Assembly (NCBI RefSeq): GCF_017357525.1
Contig: NZ_CP036172.1
Span: 2,020,561 to 2,084,560, forward strand
Length of the DNA stretch: 64,000 bases
Direction of reading: 5' to 3'
Origin: Methanofollis aquaemaris
Lineage (GTDB): Archaea > Halobacteriota > Methanomicrobia > Methanomicrobiales > Methanofollaceae
This document shows, one piece after another, positions 3,277 through 21,878 of the stretch. Under the pieces are notes generated by a model. The model was not told the DNA's origin. It did not search any database and saw only the letters and a list, made by a program, of their open reading frames with translations. The stretch's first letter is position 1; every line of letters starts with the position of its first letter. The position numbers and the translations under genes were made by a program.

Positions 3277-4121
3277 TTTGCCACTTCCTGTAAGATATTG
3301 TCCCGTTTCACGATACCGAGGATTTCGTTTCCTCGTGTAATGACCACGCTGTTGATGCGGTGGTCGACCATCATTCGCACCGCCTCGGCGGCGGTGGTCT
3401 CGGGGGGAGCGGTCAGGACCGGGTGGGTCATGAAGTCCTCCGCGATTGCCGAGACTTCAGTTACATATCTGAATGCTTTTCTTCCACCAGATGCTTCTTT
3501 CCTCAGCATTTTTATATCTTTTTCGGGTATGCCCCCGGACACGTTTGCGTATTCGAAGAATGCAAGATTGGTTTCGGTGATGATGCCGGCGAGTGTCCCA
3601 TTGTTGTTGATGACAACCATCTTTTCATCCCGCTCTGAGAGAAGGTCGATGATGTGATCGAGGGAATGATAACGGTTCACGATCACGGCTTCTTCCATCA
3701 ACCCGGTGACCCCCACTCCGAGATTCCCTGCCGCCTTTGATCTGAGGACATCTGCCTTGGTGATAATACCGAGGAGTTCTCCCTCTTTGATCACCGGCAG
3801 GCCGCTGACCATCCGGTCGATCATGATGGCAGCGATGTCCCTGATGCCGGTCTCCGGGCCGACGGTCATGGGCTCGGACGTCATCAGGATGGAGACCGGG
3901 ATGCGGTCGATCGGTCTTCTCCGCCAGACCGGTTCGGTCTGACGCAGGCGACGGGCAAGATCTTTTTTGGTGATGATCCCCACGACGTGGGCTCCTTCCA
4001 TGACCGGAAGACGAGAGATCTTGTGTTTGATCATCAGGTTCCTCGCATACGCCGCTGTGTCATCAGGCGCGACCACTCTGACCGGTGATGACATCACCTC
4101 CTCCGCCTTCATCATTCTCAC
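3273..4121 (-). CDS. CBS-domain protein, four CBS motifs (fourth gene of the array)
   Basis: The 282-residue protein has four CBS motifs: AEEVMSSPVRVV (about 6), ILMTSEPMTVGP (about 78), GLMEEAVIVNR (about 140) and AEDFMTHPVLTAP (about 225). Each is followed by a GI(I/V)T-D/K helix. A lysine-rich linker (about 195-220) separates the third and fourth motifs. No other domain is present. Its start overlaps the upstream CBS gene by 4 nt and its stop overlaps the downstream one by 4 nt. It is probably a ligand-sensing regulatory subunit acting on an unknown partner. Confidence 0.9.
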   Translation of the reverse strand: MRMMKAEEVMSSPVRVVAPDDTAAYARNLMIKHKISRLPVMEGAHVVGIITKKDLARRLRQTEPVWRRRPIDRIPVSILMTSEPMTVGPETGIRDIAAIMIDRMVSGLPVIKEGELLGIITKADVLRSKAAGNLGVGVTGLMEEAVIVNRYHSLDHIIDLLSERDEKMVVINNNGTLAGIITETNLAFFEYANVSGGIPEKDIKMLRKEASGGRKAFRYVTEVSAIAEDFMTHPVLTAPPETTAAEAVRMMVDHRINSVVITRGNEILGIVKRDNILQEVAK

Positions 4122-5059
4122 TCCTGGGAAAACGCTCTTACAAGATCAAATTCGGTGATCAGGCCGATCAGTTTCCCGTCTTCAATGACCGGGAGAGCAC
4201 CGACCTTTTTCTGCAGCATCTTCAGTGCCGCATCATTGATGTTCCTGTCAGGGACCGTGGTGTACAGATCGCCTGAGACAAGCGTGCGAACCGGCAGGGC
4301 CATCATTTCTCCCACGTCGCCGGTGGAAAGTCTGGTGAAGACCTCGCCGTTTCCGAGATATTTCATGATGTCTGATGCCGTGACAATCCCGAAAAGGACG
4401 TCGTCGGAGACGATGGGCAGACGCCTGAAGCCATGCGCGATCATCTCTCTGGTGACCGTGCCTATGGGCGTGTCGGGGCCGGTGACCCGCAGTCCGGTGC
4501 TCATAACCCCTTCGACCACGACGTCGGTCTCCTCGGTGGCGAGTGCCTTCATGACATCGCGCTCGGTGACGATCCCGACGACAACCTCTTCGTCGTTCAC
4601 GATCGGGAGACCTCCGATCTTCTGGGTGACGATCGTCTCGGTGACCTCGGCGAGCGAGGCCGAGTCGGGGATCGTCCTGACCCGTTGGGTCATGATCGAC
4701 CGCACGCTCTCGTTGATCGCGGCGATGAGGTTGCCGTTGTGTTTGACCCGCACAAGGTTGTAGTGATCCCCGCCGCCGAGGAGGTCGATGATATCGCGGG
4801 CGGTGACGATCCCGCGCAGCCGATGGGTTCCGGCGTCAGTGATCGGGAGCCTTCGGAAACCGCAATCGGTCATCATTTCGACTGCATCGATGATACGAGT
4901 CGTCGGGGGGGCTGAGATGACATCTCTGGTTGCGATACCCATCACTTCGCCCCTGGTCTCGACGACCCGGGACTTGAAGTCGACCGGTCCGCGGTCCAGT
5001 TTCCCGGGCATCTTCAGGAGTTTGTCGCCCTGATTCGTGTTCTGCCAGTTCTGGTACAT
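4118..5059 (-). CDS. CBS-domain protein, four CBS motifs (third gene of the array)
   Basis: The 313-residue product carries four CBS motifs. Motif starts visible are MGIATRDVISAPPTTRI (about 40), VRSIMTQRVRTIPDSAS (about 116), VEGVMSTGLRVTGPDTP (about 184) and VGEMMALPVRTLVSGDL (about 254). The repeated pattern GF/GG-RRLPI-V-GIVTxxD is well conserved, as in nucleotide- or SAM-binding Bateman modules. A polar N-terminal extension of about 35 residues precedes motif 1. The gene starts 4 nt after the stop of the second CBS gene and overlaps the fourth by 4 nt. Confidence 0.9.
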   Translation of the reverse strand: MYQNWQNTNQGDKLLKMPGKLDRGPVDFKSRVVETRGEVMGIATRDVISAPPTTRIIDAVEMMTDCGFRRLPITDAGTHRLRGIVTARDIIDLLGGGDHYNLVRVKHNGNLIAAINESVRSIMTQRVRTIPDSASLAEVTETIVTQKIGGLPIVNDEEVVVGIVTERDVMKALATEETDVVVEGVMSTGLRVTGPDTPIGTVTREMIAHGFRRLPIVSDDVLFGIVTASDIMKYLGNGEVFTRLSTGDVGEMMALPVRTLVSGDLYTTVPDRNINDAALKMLQKKVGALPVIEDGKLIGLITEFDLVRAFSQE

Positions 5060-5063
5060 AGCA

Positions 5064-5822
5064 TCATTCCTTCACATGGAGCCCTTTCAGTACGTCATGC
5101 CTGTCGATCATGCCGACAAGGGTTTCACCCTCCATGACCGGCATCTGTGATAGATCGTGCTCGACCATGCGCTCTGCTGCTGTTCTGATGTCTTCTTCAA
5201 GGTCGACGGTGACGGGTGGCGTCACCATCACGCTCTCGACCGGCACCTTCCCTCCCCGTTCGAGGCTTTTTCTCACTCTGCCGTTATTCAGGATGTCCCT
5301 CCTGGATATGATTCCGGTCAGGGTATTGTTCTTCATCACTGCGAACGCGGTGATGTCTCTGTCAAGCATCTGTGCATAGGCTCTGCTGACGGTGTCGGTG
5401 GTTTCACAGACCGGCGGTGACCGGCGCATGTAGTCCTTGATCTCCCCGTGGAGGTCCTCGCGTGTGCAGAGGATAGGGAAGATCTCCGAGAGCAGCACGC
5501 TGCCAAGCACGTTTCTGTTGTCATCTACGACGGTGGCTGTATCGGTCCCGTTCTCGCGGATCGCTTCCGCGACTCGTATCAGGGGCAGGTCGGACGGGAC
5601 CGTGGTCCCTTCGCGGACAAACCCCTCAATGAGAACGTCGGACTTTGTCTCAGTGATCTTCAGCACGTCGGTGATGTTGATATACCCGACATAACGCCCT
5701 CTGGCATTGGTGATCGGGATCTCGCGGAAGATATCGTCACGCAGCACCTGGCGTGCCCGGGTCATGGGATCGCCTGTGGTGAGGACCGGGGTCTTCACCA
5801 TCAGATCTTCAGCCACTTTCAT
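5064..5822 (-). CDS. CBS-domain protein, four CBS motifs (second gene of the array)
   Basis: The 252-residue product begins MKVAEDLMVKTPVL and contains four CBS units: 1-60, about 62-118, about 124-178 and about 196-250. The strongest are the first and last (VESVMVTPPVTVDLEED to GMIDRHDVLKGL). No catalytic residues or membrane segments are seen. Its ATG overlaps the stop of the first CBS gene by 4 nt. Like its neighbours it is probably a cytosolic sensor of an adenine-containing ligand. The partner protein is unknown. Confidence 0.9.
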   Translation of the reverse strand: MKVAEDLMVKTPVLTTGDPMTRARQVLRDDIFREIPITNARGRYVGYINITDVLKITETKSDVLIEGFVREGTTVPSDLPLIRVAEAIRENGTDTATVVDDNRNVLGSVLLSEIFPILCTREDLHGEIKDYMRRSPPVCETTDTVSRAYAQMLDRDITAFAVMKNNTLTGIISRRDILNNGRVRKSLERGGKVPVESVMVTPPVTVDLEEDIRTAAERMVEHDLSQMPVMEGETLVGMIDRHDVLKGLHVKE

Positions 5823-6382
5823 CTCAAGCGCTCCTCCTCCTGACAGTCTTCACACAGCAGCATTGAGTCCACCCGCATAAGGTTGTCGCTCATATGCCCG
5901 CACCGGTCGCAAACGCCCATGTCGAAACTCTCATCGCGGTTGATGACGATGAGATCGGACATCAGTTCGTTGAGCTCGTTTGCAACGGAAAGAAGATCCC
6001 TGACCGTGACGATGCCGGTCACGTTCCCGCCCTCGACCACGGGCAGTCTTCTCACCCGGTGTTTAATCATCATCTGTGCAGCTTCCCCAACCGTCTGTTC
6101 GGTCTCGATGGTGATCAGAGGAGTGCTCATAATCTCCCTGACATACACTGAACTTGGCTTGAGATCCTTTGCGACGACCTTGCAGTTGATGTCCTGCTCG
6201 GTGACGATTCCGGTGGGAATGTTCCCTGAAAGGACGATGCAACTCCCGACCTCATCACGGCACATGTGGGCTGCGGCTTTTGCGACCGTTGCCTCAGCCT
6301 CGATGGTGGTGGGGTTGACCCTCATTATTTCCTTCAGCGGAACTCTTGTTTCAAAGTACATCGTGTCTTGTGTATTTGACAT
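5819..6382 (-). CDS. CBS-domain protein with C-terminal zinc ribbon (first gene of the array)
   Basis: The 187-residue protein has two CBS motifs (LKEIMRVNPTTIEAEATV, about 16; VREIMSTPLITIETEQTV, about 81). They are followed by a C-terminal zinc-binding segment with CDRC (about 158-161) and CEDC (about 177-180). CBS-plus-zinc-ribbon proteins occur in many methanogens. As first gene of the five-gene run it lies next to the divergent promoter region shared with the arvABC operon. The zinc ribbon is the only non-CBS domain in the array and could be the contact to nucleic acid or to a protein partner (inference). Confidence 0.9.
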   Translation of the reverse strand: MSNTQDTMYFETRVPLKEIMRVNPTTIEAEATVAKAAAHMCRDEVGSCIVLSGNIPTGIVTEQDINCKVVAKDLKPSSVYVREIMSTPLITIETEQTVGEAAQMMIKHRVRRLPVVEGGNVTGIVTVRDLLSVANELNELMSDLIVINRDESFDMGVCDRCGHMSDNLMRVDSMLLCEDCQEEERLR

Positions 6383-8010: not shown

Positions 8011-8182
8011 TCTCCCTTCCTGTTTTCTATATCTTTTTATATCTTCGGGTGTATAGGATCTGGTGCTATACCTGGACGGCATGGGCACGGCGTGTCCGGT
8101 GTCGTCCGAGCCCGGTTTTTTCAGTGAAATGTACCTTTTCTGGTAGTTCCAGTACAGATCCGGGTAAACGGAGGTGAACAAG

Positions 8183-9304
8183 ATGAAACCACGATACCTG
8201 ACACGAGTTGACCAGATCGATGCCCTGAATGCTGAAGACAAGGCCCCCCTCAGGAAGGTCGAGGATATGTTTGCTTTCCGCTCAAACGAATATTATCTCT
8301 CTCTCATCGATTGGAATGATCCGACCGATCCGATCCGGAGAATCGCGATTCCCGATCCGATGGAACTGGAGGATCAAGGGGTTCTCGATCCTTCGCAGGA
8401 GAAGAACTATACGGTTGTCAGAGGGATCCAGCACAAGTACCGGGAGACTGCGTTGCTCCTGGTGTCGGATGTATGTGGATCATTCTGTCGGTTCTGCTTC
8501 CGAAAACGCTTGTTCATCGAGAGGGGTGCTGAGGTGACGAGAGATGTGACCGAGGAACTTGCTTATATCAGGGATCATTCCGAGATCACGAATGTCCTCC
8601 TGACCGGCGGAGATCCATTGATCATGTCCACGTCAAAGCTCGAACCGATCGTGCGTGCGGTGCGGGAGATCGAGCATGTCAGGATCATCAGGATCGGGTC
8701 CAAGATGCCTGCCTTCAATCCGTTCCGGATCATCGAGGATCCGGCGCTGCTGGAGATGATCAGGCGTTATTCGACGCCTGAGAAGCGGATTTATATCATG
8801 GCTCAGTTCAACCACCCCCGTGAACTCACTTCCCGGGCATTGGAGGCTCTCTCTCTCCTCATGGAGGCCGGGGCGGTGGTGGTGAACCAGACGCCTTTGT
8901 TGCGCGGGATCAACGACGACCCGGAGGTGCTCGCGAAACTCTTCAAGAAACTCTCTTTCATCGGTGTCCCGCCGTACTATGTCTTCCAGTGCCGTCCGAC
9001 GCGGGGGAACGGGATGTTCCAGGTACCGGTTGAGGAGACGTATGAGATCTTTGAGGAGGCGAAGGCGCAGGTCTCCGGACTTGCAAAGCGTGCGAAACTC
9101 GTGATGTCCCATGTGAGCGGGAAGATCGAGATCGCGGGCTTGACTGATGATTGTATCTATTTCAAGTATCACCAGGCGGCTGATTCGGCAAATATCGGGC
9201 GTTTCATGGCGTTCAAGCGCAACCCGGCCGCACTCTGGTTCGATGACTACACCGAACCGGTGAACGACCGTGCCGATCTGCCGGGGTTGACCTGCCCGAT
9301 CTGA
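8183..9304 (+). CDS. KamA-family radical SAM protein (lysine 2,3-aminomutase-like)
   Basis: The 373-residue product has the radical SAM cluster motif CGSFCRFC (Cys at 98, 102 and 105), the LTGGDPL segment that binds SAM, and a late SGKIEIAG segment that aligns with the PLP-lysine region of lysine 2,3-aminomutase. Methanogens use such an enzyme (AblA) with an acetyltransferase (AblB) to make the osmolyte N-epsilon-acetyl-beta-lysine. No AblB gene is adjacent and the protein is shorter than typical AblA, so the substrate is open. I prefer ATG 8183 to GTG 8174 because GGAGGTG ends 7 nt before it. Confidence 0.8.
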   Translation: MKPRYLTRVDQIDALNAEDKAPLRKVEDMFAFRSNEYYLSLIDWNDPTDPIRRIAIPDPMELEDQGVLDPSQEKNYTVVRGIQHKYRETALLLVSDVCGSFCRFCFRKRLFIERGAEVTRDVTEELAYIRDHSEITNVLLTGGDPLIMSTSKLEPIVRAVREIEHVRIIRIGSKMPAFNPFRIIEDPALLEMIRRYSTPEKRIYIMAQFNHPRELTSRALEALSLLMEAGAVVVNQTPLLRGINDDPEVLAKLFKKLSFIGVPPYYVFQCRPTRGNGMFQVPVEETYEIFEEAKAQVSGLAKRAKLVMSHVSGKIEIAGLTDDCIYFKYHQAADSANIGRFMAFKRNPAALWFDDYTEPVNDRADLPGLTCPI

Positions 9305-16712: not shown

Positions 16713-17384
16713 ATGAGTTCCTCCGTCCGGGAAGACTGTCTGGAGGCGATCCTCGCCCTGATGCAGGAGCACGACCGTCCGGTCACTGCCGAAGAGATCG
16801 ACGAGGCGGTGGAGGCTGCTTCATCGGAGGTCGCGGCCTCGGTCAGGGCGCTGGTCGAGGAAGGATGTCTTCGGGGTGAGGATGGGGGATATATGCTGAC
16901 ACCTGCCGGAAAAAGTGCGGCTGAGGCGGTTTTCAGGAAGCACCGGGTGCTCGAATGTTTTCTCCATGAGATGCTCGGGATGGACGTGGGCACCGCCTCG
17001 AAAGAGGCCTGTATCCTTGAACATACCGTCTCGGACGAGGCAATCGACCGGCTCTCCAGTTATATGGGGAACCCTCGCGGCCGGACGCGGGGGCGCGGGG
17101 GGCCGCGGAGGCATGGCGGCCTTCCGGTCGACTGCCCGATGGGTGACATCAACAACGGGCACCGTCCTCTCCTGGACTTTTCCGAAGGGGAGACGGTGAG
17201 GGTCGCGATGATCCGGTGCATCGGCCGGAACCGGCGGCTCATCGATCTCGGAATCATCCCCGGCAAAGAGATTACGATCCGGCGCAAACTCCATAACAAT
17301 GCCCTGGTGGTGAGGGTGATGGGCGCCGACATCGCACTCTCTCCTGAGATCGCATCGACAATTCTGGTGGAGAGAACCGGATGA
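16713..17384 (+). CDS. DtxR-type metal regulator fused to FeoA domain
   Basis: The 223-residue product joins a DtxR winged helix (1-65) and dimerisation/metal domain (66-118) to an SH3-like FeoA domain (about 152-223). The metal ligands CILEH are at 100-104. Between them lies an Arg/Gly/His-rich linker (GRTRGRGGPRRHGG). It probably senses Fe(II) and controls iron uptake, while the FeoA part may contact FeoB. Its stop overlaps the feoB start by 4 nt. There is no separate feoA. ATG 16713 was chosen because DtxR homology begins there. Confidence 0.88.
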   Translation: MSSSVREDCLEAILALMQEHDRPVTAEEIDEAVEAASSEVAASVRALVEEGCLRGEDGGYMLTPAGKSAAEAVFRKHRVLECFLHEMLGMDVGTASKEACILEHTVSDEAIDRLSSYMGNPRGRTRGRGGPRRHGGLPVDCPMGDINNGHRPLLDFSEGETVRVAMIRCIGRNRRLIDLGIIPGKEITIRRKLHNNALVVRVMGADIALSPEIASTILVERTG

Positions 17385-19237
17385 GATGTGCGCTTGTCGG
17401 GAATCCGAGTGTTGGCAAGTCGCTCATTTTTAACCAGCTCACCGGCCTCGGGGTCGAGGTGAGCAACTATCCCGGGACAACGGTCGAGTTGATGCAGGGG
17501 ACACTCTGCTATCGCCGCTCCTCGATTGAGGTCATCGACCTTCCTGGCATTTATTCTCTGGACGGGGATTCGGCCGAGGAGGAACTTGTCAGAACCTATC
17601 TGATGACCGAGGCTCCGGAGGTCATCGTTGCGGTCCTCGACGCCACCCGGCTTGAGCGCAACCTCTACCTTCTCCTCCAGGTGGCCGAGTATGGGATCCC
17701 GACCGTCGTCGTCCTGAATATGATCGACGAGGCGGCGGCCCAGGGGATCTCCATCGACTGTGACCATCTCTCCGAACTTCTCGGCCTGCCGGTGATCGAG
17801 ACCGCTGCCTCCCTGGGAAAAAATGTCGGGGAGATCATCCCGGCGGTCCTGGCCGGGGGGAATACCTCGACGCTCTCGATTCCATACAACCCCCAGGTCG
17901 AGGCCGGACTTCGGAGCCTGGAGAAGATCTATGGCGCCTCCAGGCTCCAGGGCCTCCAGGCCCTCCAGGGGATCGGTGATGAGCCCGGGCTCATCGAAGG
18001 GGCACAGACGATCGCGGGAGAACTTGAGGCCCGGAACCATATGGCACCCCACCAGATCATCGCGGCAAACCGGTATCTCTGCGCCCGGCAGATCACCGGG
18101 GCCGTCATCGGGGCCCAGGAACCGGACCGCCGTTTCTCTCTTGACCGCCTCCTGACCCGCACCTTCCCCGGCATCCCGATCCTTGCCCTGGTTCTCCTCT
18201 CGATGTTGCTCACGGTCTTCGTCGCCGGTTCGTTCCTCGAAGAACTGATCGTCGAGAACTTCAACCTCTATGTCATCGAACCGTTCCTGGCCCTCTCTCT
18301 CCATCCGCTTGCGGAGACGCTCGGTCACGCCGCTCTTCTTGCGATCGTGGCAGGGCTCGGGATCGCCTTCCCGTTTGTCTTTATCTTCTATATTCTTCTC
18401 TCGATCATCGAGGACACAGGTTATATGACCCGGGCCGCCTTCCTCGCCGACCGGTCGATGCACCACCTCGGCCTCCATGGCGGCGCCATCATCCCGATGG
18501 TGATGGCGTTTGGGTGTAATGTCCCTGCGGTCATGGCGGCCGGACAGATGCGGAGTGGCAGGGAAAAGACGATCGCAGCCTTTCTCATCACGATGGTCCC
18601 CTGCTCGGCCAGGACCGTGATCATCGCCGGTATCGTCGCTGCGTTTGTAGGGATCGGAGCGGCCCTCTCGGTCTACCTCATCGTCATTGTCCTCATCCTG
18701 CTCACGGGCTATGTCCTCGCGAGGTACATCCCCGGCGGGCAATATGGTATGATCCTTGAGATGGCGCCCCTGCGCCGCCCTGACCCGGTCCTTGTGCTGC
18801 GGAAATCGTGGGAGCGGATCAAGGAGTTCCTCTTCATTGCCATGCCTCTCCTCCTGGTCGGCAGCGTCATCCTCGGTGCGCTGGATTATCTCGGGTATGT
18901 TGAGGCCTTTTCCCGGGCAGTCGCCCCCATCTCGGAAGGGGTGCTCGGTCTCCCGGCCTATGCCTCCACCGCCCTCCTCTTCGGGATACTCAGGAAGGAG
19001 ATGGCCTTCGAGACTCTCGCTGTCCTGTCCGGGACCACGGACCTTGGCTCGGTGATGACCAGCGTTCAACTCTACACCTTCGCTGTGATCAGCGTCCTCT
19101 TTGTCCCCTGCATATCCACGATCGCAGTCCTCCTCAAACAGGTGGGAACGAAGATCACGCTTGCTGTTTCGGCATACACGATCATGCTCGGGTTTTTCAT
19201 TGGTGGGATCATACATCTGATCACAGGTTTGATCTGA
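17381..19237 (+). CDS. feoB: Ferrous iron transporter FeoB
   Basis: The 618-residue membrane GTPase imports Fe(II). The cytosolic G domain has GNPSVGKS (7-14), the switch YPGTTVE, DLPGIYSL and NMID. The membrane part has about eight helices and the FeoB gate motifs TGYMTRAAF, GCNVPA and PCSARTVIIAG. It is slightly shorter than bacterial FeoB. It overlaps the DtxR-FeoA gene and is followed one base after its stop by a RecA-like gene, so it is part of a long co-transcribed run. Confidence 0.93.
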   Translation: MRCALVGNPSVGKSLIFNQLTGLGVEVSNYPGTTVELMQGTLCYRRSSIEVIDLPGIYSLDGDSAEEELVRTYLMTEAPEVIVAVLDATRLERNLYLLLQVAEYGIPTVVVLNMIDEAAAQGISIDCDHLSELLGLPVIETAASLGKNVGEIIPAVLAGGNTSTLSIPYNPQVEAGLRSLEKIYGASRLQGLQALQGIGDEPGLIEGAQTIAGELEARNHMAPHQIIAANRYLCARQITGAVIGAQEPDRRFSLDRLLTRTFPGIPILALVLLSMLLTVFVAGSFLEELIVENFNLYVIEPFLALSLHPLAETLGHAALLAIVAGLGIAFPFVFIFYILLSIIEDTGYMTRAAFLADRSMHHLGLHGGAIIPMVMAFGCNVPAVMAAGQMRSGREKTIAAFLITMVPCSARTVIIAGIVAAFVGIGAALSVYLIVIVLILLTGYVLARYIPGGQYGMILEMAPLRRPDPVLVLRKSWERIKEFLFIAMPLLLVGSVILGALDYLGYVEAFSRAVAPISEGVLGLPAYASTALLFGILRKEMAFETLAVLSGTTDLGSVMTSVQLYTFAVISVLFVPCISTIAVLLKQVGTKITLAVSAYTIMLGFFIGGIIHLITGLI

Positions 19238-19238
19238 T

Positions 19239-19949
19239 ATGGATCCGTTCAAGACAGGCATCCCGGCGATCGACGAGACCACAGGAGGGATCCCACCGGC
19301 TTCTAATCTGCTTCTTCTTGCCCCTCCTTTTGCCGGCGCCGATCGTCTGGCATATTTTCTCGCTCAGCCCGGAGAGAGCGACTATACGATTGTCATCTCG
19401 GCCGACGGCGACGCTCTGGACGTTGAGGACTCATTTGGTCTCCCTGAGGAGGGGCGCCGAAGGCTCTGGATCATCGACTGCATCACCAGGACGATGGAGC
19501 CCACCGCCACCGACAGCGAACAGGTGAAGTACGTGGCAAGCCCGGTGGACCTGACCGGGATGGGGATCAAGTTCACCAGGATCCTGGAGGAGATCGGAGA
19601 GGCGGAAGCGGCCAGGAGCGCCGGCGAGGTGCCGCGGGTGCGGATCTGTATCAATTCTCTCTCGAGTTTTCTCATCTATTCAAAACTTGAGGCGATCTAC
19701 CGGTTCTTCCATATCCTCTCCGCGAGGGTGAGGCGGATGAACGGGGTTGCCATCTATCTTCTCAACCCTGCGGCAGTCGACGAGAAGACCATCTCGACTC
19801 TCGAACAGTTGATGAACGGGGTTGTCGTGATCTCGGCGGAGGACGGTGGGGACGGGGTTCGATCAATGGATCTCAGGACAAAGGGCGGTGTCGTCGTCCG
19901 TGACGTCCGCTACCGCATTGCAGGAAACGAACTTGTGGTGGAGTCATGA
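19239..19949 (+). CDS. Degenerate RecA/KaiC-like ATPase homologue
   Basis: The 236-residue product starts FKTGIPAIDETTGGIPPASNLLLLAPP, which is the KaiC/RAD55-type opening. In place of the Walker A GxxxxGK it has APPFAGADRLAY, without the Lys. Later strands such as RVRICINSLSSFLIY and GVAIYLLNP correspond to the Walker B region and following strands. It probably does not hydrolyse ATP and could be a regulatory or scaffold protein. It starts 1 nt after feoB and overlaps the next gene by 4 nt. Confidence 0.75.
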   Translation: MDPFKTGIPAIDETTGGIPPASNLLLLAPPFAGADRLAYFLAQPGESDYTIVISADGDALDVEDSFGLPEEGRRRLWIIDCITRTMEPTATDSEQVKYVASPVDLTGMGIKFTRILEEIGEAEAARSAGEVPRVRICINSLSSFLIYSKLEAIYRFFHILSARVRRMNGVAIYLLNPAAVDEKTISTLEQLMNGVVVISAEDGGDGVRSMDLRTKGGVVVRDVRYRIAGNELVVES

Positions 19950-21121
19950 TACGGACCGGTATCCTTGCGTTCGACAGGATGATCGGGGGGGGAGTACCAA
20001 AAGGAAAGAGAGCGCTCTTCTCTCTGGGGCTCGGGGTGGAAGGGCAGCAGTTTCTGTTCAGTGCCCTTCAGAGTGCCAGACGGCAGAGACGTCGCTGCCT
20101 GGTCGTGGTTCCGCAGGCTACCAGAGATGCCTTCCTTTCCGGAACGGTCGGGACACCATATCATATCGAGGGAGACGCGGGGCTCTACTTCCTGGACTCT
20201 CCGGTGTTCGAGGAGATCGATGCCAGTCGTGTGGCCACTCCCGAGACCGAGGCCATTGTCTGGGAGAACCGTCTCGACACGGTCATGAGGGAGCATTCCA
20301 TCGATGCAGTCTTCCTGTACTCCAACCGTCTCTGTGATGCACTCGGGACGTCTCGGGCCCTCGGGCTCTTTGCCGACCTCTGTGCGAGGCGGGGGGTGAC
20401 GCTCTTTGTGGAGTACCTCAACCTGTATGGTGGCCGTCACCTCAGGGATATGCTGGCTTCGGTCCCCTTTGACCTGGTGGTGACGGCAGGCGAGGGGTTT
20501 GGGAACCACATGTTCCTGCATAATTTCAGGGTGGAACAGATCTCCTGGATGGATATGCCGCCCCGCCAGCTCCCCTTTGTGGTTCATGAAGATGGACGTC
20601 TCGTCCCGCAGATCCCGAAGATCGTCGTCACCGGTCCGGTGGACGCCGGCAAGACCACCTTCATCAGGACGGTCTCGAAGATGTGGGTTTCTTCTGATCG
20701 GGAGGGGGTGTCAGGCACACCGACGACGGTCGCAATGGACTTTGGAAACCCGTCTGTCACCTGCAGCGGTTTTGAGGTCAATCTCTTCGGCACGCCCGGA
20801 CAGGAACATTTCGGACCGATCATCAGACATCTGCTCACCAACGCAACCGGCGTGGTCTTCATGGTGGACGGGTCCAGGGCCGGGGGCCTTGAAGAGGCGC
20901 ATGGGATGCTGGCGAATGTGCTTGCCCTCGATGTTCCCTTTCTCGTGGCCGTGAACATGAAGGATCTTTCCGGGGAGATCGGTGACGCTGAGGTGCGAGA
21001 GGTGCTTGGTGTTCCTCAAGGGACGCCGGTCATCTCTTTTTCGGCAAAGAAATTGGACGAGGCGACGGCTGTAGTCGACGCCCTTGTAGGACTGATTGTC
21101 CATGGGCAATCTATGGAGTGA
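19946..21121 (+). CDS. RecA/KaiC-like domain fused to a Ras/MglA-like GTPase
   Basis: The 391-residue product has two parts. Residues 1-215 resemble KaiC/RAD55 ([19 protein letters not shown]) but lack a Walker A Lys. Residues 225-391 are a small GTPase with G1 GPVDAGKTT (230-238), G3 GTPGQE (282-287) and a G4-like NMKD (337-340, for the usual NKxD). Such Srprb/MglA-like GTPases act in polarity or membrane-traffic switches in prokaryotes. Together with the preceding RecA-like protein it suggests a two-protein switch. The substrate is unknown. Its ATG overlaps the upstream stop. Confidence 0.8.
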
Positions 21122-21128
21122 ACGAGCG

Positions 21129-21878
21129 ATGCTGACATTTATCGGACTTGGTCTCTTTGATGAGAACGACGTATCGGTCAAGGGGCTGGAGCAGATCCGG
21201 CGGGCCGACTATGTGTTTCTTGAATGCTACACCTCGGTCCTGACCGGGACGACCATTGAACGGATGGAGGAGTTCTTCGGGAAGGAGGTGAAGACGCTTG
21301 GTCGAGACGACGTCGAGGGGCATCCTGAAGATTTTCTCAGGCTGGCACAGGACTCGGACGTGGCGTTCCTCACTGCGGGCGATCCGATGGTCTCGACAAC
21401 TCATATCGACCTGAGGATCCGTGCCGCCGACATGGGGATCAGGACGGCGGTCGTCCACGGGGCCTCGATCGTGAGTGCGGTCTGCGGACTCACTGGATTG
21501 CAGAACTACCGGTTCGGAAAGTCGTGCTCTCTTCCGTTCCCGTATGGGAAATGGGCTCCAAAGACTCCGGTTGAGGTGATCGAGCACAACATGGCCGAGA
21601 ACCTTCATACCCTCGTCTACCTGGACATCCAGCCCGAGAGGTATATGCGGGTTCCTGAGGCGGTGGGGTTCCTCGAGGAGATGGCCGCCGAACGCGGCCT
21701 CTCGATCCCGGTCTATGTGGGGGTGGCCAGGGCGGGTTCGGCCGAACCGATGGTTGCAGCCGGGACCGCCGGTGACCTGGCAAAGGTGGACTTCGGGGAC
21801 CCGCTCCATATCCTTGTTGTCCCTGCCGAACTTCACCACATGGAACGGGAATATCTCGAAACCTTTGCCGGCCTATGA
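21129..21878 (+). CDS. dphB: Diphthine synthase
   Basis: The 249-residue SAM-dependent methyltransferase performs the methylation steps of diphthamide formation on the histidine of elongation factor 2. The tetrapyrrole-methylase-like fold is evident ([60 protein letters not shown]). The length fits archaeal DphB. ATG 21129 was preferred since the family begins at MLTFIGLG. It lies 7 nt after the GTPase fusion and overlaps the DUF357 gene by 4 nt. Confidence 0.94.

Follow-up and report, generated by a model that had tools for sequence, protein, structure and literature searches.

The small GTPases of MglA groups 2-5 share the GTPGQ motif and are encoded by genes coupled to MglB Roadblock genes, and the survey that defined these groups took proteins of 150-240 aa as its small GTPases (PMC4316618). 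Archaeal KaiC-family RecA ATPases and their inactivated relatives (iKaiC) include dead ATPase variants and have a predicted signalling role. Makarova and colleagues are said to have described iKaiC hubs in which signalling modules are joined to a KaiC domain that has become inactive. Inactive KaiC-like proteins have been proposed as archaeal signalling hubs (Makarova et al. 2017, cited in PMC5847659, of which part of the text was available), and the gene module described below may be mentioned in the former paper. The GTPase genes of Asgard MK-D1 generally do not share operons with those for Roadblock, longin or TRAPPC3 proteins (Tran et al., PMC10933270), and the V4R domain is a homologue of the TRAPP component Bet3 (PMC2253512), both statements being taken from portions of these papers.

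The locus compared with these systems consists of two genes, P1 and P2 (Table 1), in the window, which is the whole stretch of 64,000 nucleotides of Methanofollis aquaemaris DNA that was analysed, from a host genome of 2.75 Mb in one contig. P1 is a member of Pfam DUF7504, which like DUF7090 is a family with no functional description, and the name DUF7504 was not found in the literature searched. P1 and P2 have in common with the KaiC family the fold, the dead ATPase variants and the predicted signalling role, but they differ from iKaiC, compared here by description only and from partial sources, in the fusion to a Ras-like GTPase and in the Roadblock partner. P2 shares with MglA/MglB (groups 2-5, including the Streptomyces conservons) the GTPGQ form of G3 and, in most lineages, the coupling to Roadblock; it differs in combining a RecA and a GTPase domain in one protein of about 390 aa, and in Methanomicrobiales the Roadblock gene does not adjoin P2. 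Given the limit of 150-240 aa (PMC4316618), P2 would fall outside the main classes of that survey as its available portions present them, and those portions of the MglA descriptions hold no counterpart of P1. The likeness to the Asgard GTPase/Roadblock/TRAPPC3-V4R systems and to eukaryotic TRAPP and Ragulator lies in the presence of a GTPase, Roadblock and V4R in one Archaeoglobaceae cluster; RecA parts are not mentioned in the excerpts of those descriptions that were available. Archaeal KaiC-like proteins and Ras-like GTPases are treated apart in the available portions of the literature, and here they are fused and tightly clustered with the class of regulator that is usual for such GTPases. 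No description of a P1-P2-Roadblock module was found in the literature searched, part of which was available as excerpts.

Locus layout and sequence sets

The two overlapping genes of the earlier note, and their placement between feoB and the gene for diphthine synthase, were recovered exactly as it had given them (Table 1). The overlap is 4 nt, with ATGA common to both genes. In three congeneric genomes dN/dS was 0.14-0.17 for P1, 0.15-0.19 for the N-terminal half of P2 and 0.13-0.25 for its C-terminal half, with FeoB as the comparison value (0.09-0.10). Because purifying selection acts on both P1 and P2 in these three close species, the two are not chance frames.

Table 1. Coordinates of the P1-P2 locus and its features in the window
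Feature	Position	Strand	Evidence or remark
feoB, ferrous iron transport protein B	17381..19237	+	TIGR00437 E=2e-131; upstream of P1, 1 nt gap
P1, RecA/KaiC-fold protein, Pfam DUF7504, 236 aa	19239..19949	+	DUF7504 E=4e-28
P1 degenerate Walker A, APPFAGAD, residues 28-35, Lys replaced by Ala	19320..19343	+	
P2, RecA/KaiC-like pseudo-ATPase domain and MglA/Arf-type GTPase fusion, 391 aa	19946..21121	+	
P2 RecA/KaiC-like domain, residues 1-222	19946..20611	+	KaiC match, VIA Z 23.9 over 1-223
P2 degenerate Walker A, GLGVEGQQ, residues 28-35, without Lys	20027..20050	+	
P2 GTPase domain, residues 223-391	20612..21118	+	Arf E=2e-9 (above cut-off); TIGR00231 E=1e-12
P2 G1 motif GPVDAGKT	20633..20656	+	
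P2 G3 motif GTPGQ, residues 282-286	20789..20803	+	type of MglA groups 2-5
P2 G4 motif NMKD, deviates from NKxD	20954..20965	+	
dph5/dphB, diphthine synthase	21129..21878	+	TIGR00522 E=8e-87; downstream of P2, 7 nt gap

The P2 sequence alone as query returned no relatives, and a query built from the family alignment returned at least 583 relatives among 591 matching stretches. Locus counts outside the order Methanomicrobiales were taken from the best 80 of these at least 583 relatives (named genomes), a sample that is biased to closer relatives and is called the best 80 below. Of the 80 loci, 74 went into the alignment of P1 (A5) and 79 into that of P2 (A6), each with the window added; loci in which P1 or P2 was missing or not of the set span were left out. 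Alignment A3 held 17 of the 22 P2s then collected and alignment A4 held 26 chosen sequences. The nearest named relatives of P2 are from Methanofollis, with 56% identity, in a search that may omit records very near the window.

RecA folds and nucleotide-binding motifs

AlphaFold models were produced for P1 (pLDDT 92.8) and P2 (pLDDT 88.7) and compared with known structures using VIA. The best among the matches listed for P1 was 2dr3_A (Z 22.3, 214 residues, rmsd 2.7 Å), and residues 1-223 of P2 matched KaiC over 209 residues with an rmsd of 2.5 Å (Table 1). As modelled, both P1 and the N-terminal half of P2 have the RecA/KaiC fold, with Z of 22-24 against KaiC-type structures. The GTPase half of P2 is hardly sampled by the structure matches, and its assignment rests on profiles and motifs. 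At the sequence level, P1 scores 99.6 bits against a DUF7504 cut-off of 27, and DUF7504 is matched at E<=1e-3 by 75 of 75 P1 homologues (best 80). The N-terminal half of P2 alone has no Pfam match in the window copy; PF06745 (KaiC) matches 71 of 80 P2 homologues (best 80). A link of P1 to Elongator was considered from a match to PAXNEB (Elp4) that fell slightly short of the Pfam cut-off (E=2.5e-6), and was dropped as probably general RecA similarity. PAXNEB is matched at E<=1e-3 by 27 of 75 P1 homologues (best 80), and Elp4/5/6 structures are absent among the 50 VIA matches listed for P1, which are filled by KaiC-, RAD51- and related RecA-type structures.

The earlier note had described the N-termini as KaiC/RAD55-like and without a Walker A lysine. 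The RecA folds were confirmed, and GK[ST] is absent from both degenerate motifs of the window; in P1 it was looked for as the sign of a functional ATPase site. The window P1 is predicted to lack conventional ATP binding. Across the P1 alignment, the Walker A lysine was found in 0 of 26 Methanomicrobiales rows vs all 49 others, comprising 35/35 Methanosarcinia-like, 8/8 Archaeoglobaceae and 6/6 other-group rows (best 80). The Ser/Thr position after the lysine is Ser in 7 of 8 Archaeoglobaceae and acidic in 34 of 35 Methanosarcinia-like rows (best 80), so Archaeoglobaceae apparently keep a complete site, Methanosarcinia have a partly degraded one and Methanomicrobiales have lost it. The RecA half of P2 lacks the lysine throughout (0 of 80 homologues, best 80). 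Loss of the ATPase site looks like an old event for P2 and a late one for P1, since the site looks complete in most Archaeoglobaceae P1s. This stepwise loss in P1 offers a clean natural series on what a pseudo-ATPase scaffold contributes.

The GTPase that had been reported as appended to the second protein is present, with both GPVDAGKTT and GTPGQE. The G1 Lys, the G3 Gly and Gln and the G4 Asn occur in 80 of 80 P2 sequences of the best 80, as does the whole G3 motif GTPGQ, whose residues are invariant in the P2 alignment; in the same set the G2 Thr occurs in 78 and 79 of 80, the G4 Asp in 78 and the G4 Lys in 79, the sole exception to the last being the window copy. Judged against MglA groups 2-5, the window P2 has G1 GxxxxGK[ST], G2 Thr and G3 GTPGQ; it departs from them in G4, which is NMKD and not NKxD, and in architecture, the groups having a single domain of at most 240 aa and P2 having an N-terminal RecA domain before the GTPase. 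Two close congeners have NVKD and NRKD at G4. GTP binding could be weak in the window copy, given its altered G4. The switch I linker of P2 has 7 residues in 24 of 25 Methanomicrobiales rows and 2 residues in all 55 rows outside the order (best 80), a length change that fits a swap of regulator.

Distribution of the module and its Roadblock partners

Judged by sequence, P1 and P2 belong to a widespread archaeal gene module, usually with a Roadblock/LC7 gene. Full-length P2 was found in 22 of the 61 Methanomicrobiales genomes searched, the window genome included, and there P1 and P2 are kept together; close P1 (E<=1e-46) was found in 28 of the 61. With a P1 profile at E<=1e-15, related proteins were found in 209 of 392 genomes of the phylum, paralogues being counted with orthologues, and relatives found with a profile of the P2 N-terminal half adjoin P1 in many families. 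Among the best 80, the 25 Methanomicrobiales loci comprise 24 with P1 and P2 and one in which P2 is cut by the contig end after P1, and 49 of the 55 loci outside the order have all three genes, P1, P2 and Roadblock. A further three of the 55 have P2 and Roadblock, one has P1 and P2 and two have P2 only. In 69 loci of the best 80 P1 lies ahead of P2, overlapping it in 48 and within 30 nt of it in 21. The usual order, P1-P2-Roadblock, was seen in 45 outside loci of this set, and other orders occur in its Thermoplasmata, Altiarchaeota and Freyarchaeota loci.

The fused module was found in Methanomicrobiales (without Roadblock), Methanosarcinia, Archaeoglobi, Thermoplasmata, Altiarchaeota, Undinarchaeales and one contig of Freyarchaeota, a member of Promethearchaeati. 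We take Promethearchaeati to be the Asgard group, and the Freyarchaeota contig to be Asgard. P1 occurs without P2 in families f4 and f8 and in haloarchaea-like families, so P1 has a role in those lineages that does not need P2. Haloarchaea-like P1 homologues have no P2 beside them in L165-L169, and in at least one of these loci, L167, the next gene (8173-8580) encodes a CoA_binding_2 protein. In two Alkanophaga-type loci with P2 and Roadblock (L267 5373-5984 and L297 812-1438), the gene before P2 encodes a protein of 203-208 aa with a weak P1 match, which is possibly a fast-evolving P1.

A Roadblock/LC7 gene adjoins P2 in 52 of 55 loci outside Methanomicrobiales (best 80); it was not found in L289, L309 and L312, nor adjoining P2 within the stretch examined in any of the 25 Methanomicrobiales loci of that set. 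One representative module Roadblock matched Pfam Robl_LC7 with E=8e-17. Two near-identical Roadblock genes (L164 2367-2744 and 4044-4424) flank small genes beside a single P1-P2 pair. Within Methanomicrobiales, Roadblock domains of two classes occur in 55 of 61 genomes, and in the window genome the gene of one class overlaps that of a response regulator whose output domain is MetOD2 (L221, C1:969500-978000 of that genome, 4132-5216), an arrangement that recurs in other Methanomicrobiales genomes. The genes downstream of it are presumably RNA polymerase genes. The window genome also has two Roadblock-domain genes for proteins of 117 and 251 aa (L232, C1:889500-898000, 3423-5934), directly upstream of which lies a gene that, as we read it, carries [NiFe]-hydrogenase large-subunit motifs.

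In a Roadblock tree built on 120 columns, where a long branch leads to the Methanomicrobiales group, the response-regulator-linked Methanomicrobiales Roadblocks cluster with nearly all module Roadblocks (98/83 support); the second class stands apart from the module clade, and the module Roadblock of L307 falls with that other class. The tree makes it possible that Roadblock moved from the module to a response regulator in Methanomicrobiales, a move stated as possible only because of the few columns and the long branch. All four genomes of genus g6 (family f6) have P1, P2 and one Roadblock with no other GTPase match, and all five of genus g16 of the same family lack P1, P2 and Roadblock; this pattern speaks for the module, but as two genera these amount to about one independent event. 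Response-regulator-linked Roadblocks that occur without P2, in G050, G044 and G054 (L236, L235 and L238), count against an in-trans partnership.

V4R genes were found in 15 of 84 loci outside the order. Of 9 named Archaeoglobaceae loci, 8 have V4R and Roadblock genes that share 4-41 nt; in L271 (7510-8106) and L306 (7473-8105), for example, the V4R gene overlaps the end of the module Roadblock gene; Pfam V4R was confirmed on 7 proteins, and a search of the window genome for V4R gave no match. Since MK-D1 GTPases, according to the available portions of that work, generally lie outside such operons, the Archaeoglobaceae cluster is notable. If the V4R link is true, it provides part of the TRAPP machinery with an archaeal counterpart that is open to testing.

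Candidate switch module and alternative readings

P1 and P2 are best explained, with fair confidence, as the genes that have stayed linked from an ancient archaeal switch module with Roadblock, a Roadblock-gated GTPase on a pseudo-RecA scaffold. The pairing, the predicted folds, the loss of both Walker A sites, the GTPase motifs kept intact in the family, the purifying selection and the adjoining Roadblock elsewhere are read from the sequences; from them we infer the assembly of P1 with P2, the action of Roadblock and the output of the module, which may be linked to polarity, pili, the membrane or translation. The RecA halves of P1 and P2 would assemble together, as KaiC/RecA folds do, to form the scaffold, and Roadblock would set the nucleotide state of the P2 GTPase as MglB does for MglA. 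In Archaeoglobaceae-like lineages ATP on P1 would gate the complex. In Methanomicrobiales, including Methanofollis, P1 has lost its ATP site and P2 has gained about 5 residues in switch I, and Roadblock control, if retained, would act in trans, perhaps via the Roadblock beside the response regulator. The Archaeoglobus system would allow a test of a Roadblock-gated GTPase in non-Asgard archaea.

The signalling pair proposed earlier stands in part. A RecA protein whose site is dead and a fusion of RecA with a GTPase are conserved together (69 of 69 loci with P1 before P2 overlap or lie within 30 nt, best 80), and the GTPase belongs to the MglA type, which works with Roadblock regulators, but the adjoining Roadblock, and its separation in Methanomicrobiales, had been missed. 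The dead ATPase site holds for P2, but most Archaeoglobaceae P1s of the best 80 keep a complete Walker A.

A more elaborate form of the switch, rather unlikely as a whole, would place an ATP-responsive P1 and P2 in one ring or stack, a widespread, operon-encoded KaiC-Ras hybrid of archaea in which a Roadblock dimer sets the GTP state and which V4R joins in Archaeoglobaceae; Methanomicrobiales would then have dropped the ATP input and moved Roadblock to the response regulator. If true, it would be a non-Asgard assembly with three TRAPP parts, namely a Ras-like GTPase, a Roadblock/longin-type fold and a Bet3 fold.

A part in controlling type IV pili or archaella, which has been put forward for several KaiC-like ATPases and Roadblock proteins of archaea, would suit the parts of the module, as KaiC-family ATPases and Roadblock arCOG02603 occur in many archaeal pilus loci (PMC4858521) and MglA stimulates type IV pili in Myxococcus (PMC9481161), each according to the portion of the paper available. 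It is considered unlikely, as pilus genes were not seen among the recurrent neighbours named by Pfam, which were a selection, in the 84 loci outside the order.

Slightly less likely still is a translation-linked role, in which the module would help ribosome or EF-2 function with P2 as a translation accessory. Gene order was compared in 27 other Methanomicrobiales loci, 21 with P2 and six with P1 only. The gene for diphthine synthase, for which dphB is the archaeal name, is downstream in all 27, and YhbY (23), ribosomal S19e (22) and a PDCD5-type dsDNA_bind protein (17) recur near the module in the 84 loci outside the order. Such neighbours are, however, found in related clades alone, and the other genes of each block are kept to about the same degree: the LPG-synthase-like and BFN genes further downstream, which are unrelated, are each kept in 26 of the 27. 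The whole block being syntenic, the diphthine synthase neighbour has little functional weight, and plain synteny leaves the suggested link to EF-2 modification weak. Diphthine synthase is absent from the recurrent neighbours found in the 84 outside loci, Archaeoglobaceae and others have different neighbours, and the MglA-type GTPGQ motif and the adjoining Roadblock also speak against this role.

That the pair is a decaying remnant without switch function in the window lineage is improbable. The lost ATP site of P1, the lack of an adjoining Roadblock and the altered G4 of three close species would fit decay, but dN/dS is 0.13-0.25 for P1 and P2 in the same three species and the two genes are retained together in 22 of 61 genomes, the window genome among them.

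Regulation of FeoB iron uptake by the pair, which the earlier note had suggested as a possibility, is very improbable. The feoB gene ends 1 nt before P1 in the window, but P1 stays in the six of 27 loci where feoB was not found (five; L079-L082 and L093) or is inverted (one; L088), and the 14 neighbours that recur most often outside Methanomicrobiales do not include FeoB. Of the order feoB-RecA-GTPase-dphB, whose conservation the earlier note had proposed to check, the diphthine synthase end holds in every one of the 27 Methanomicrobiales loci, but feoB lies upstream on the same strand in only 21, with L084 carrying a divergent copy.
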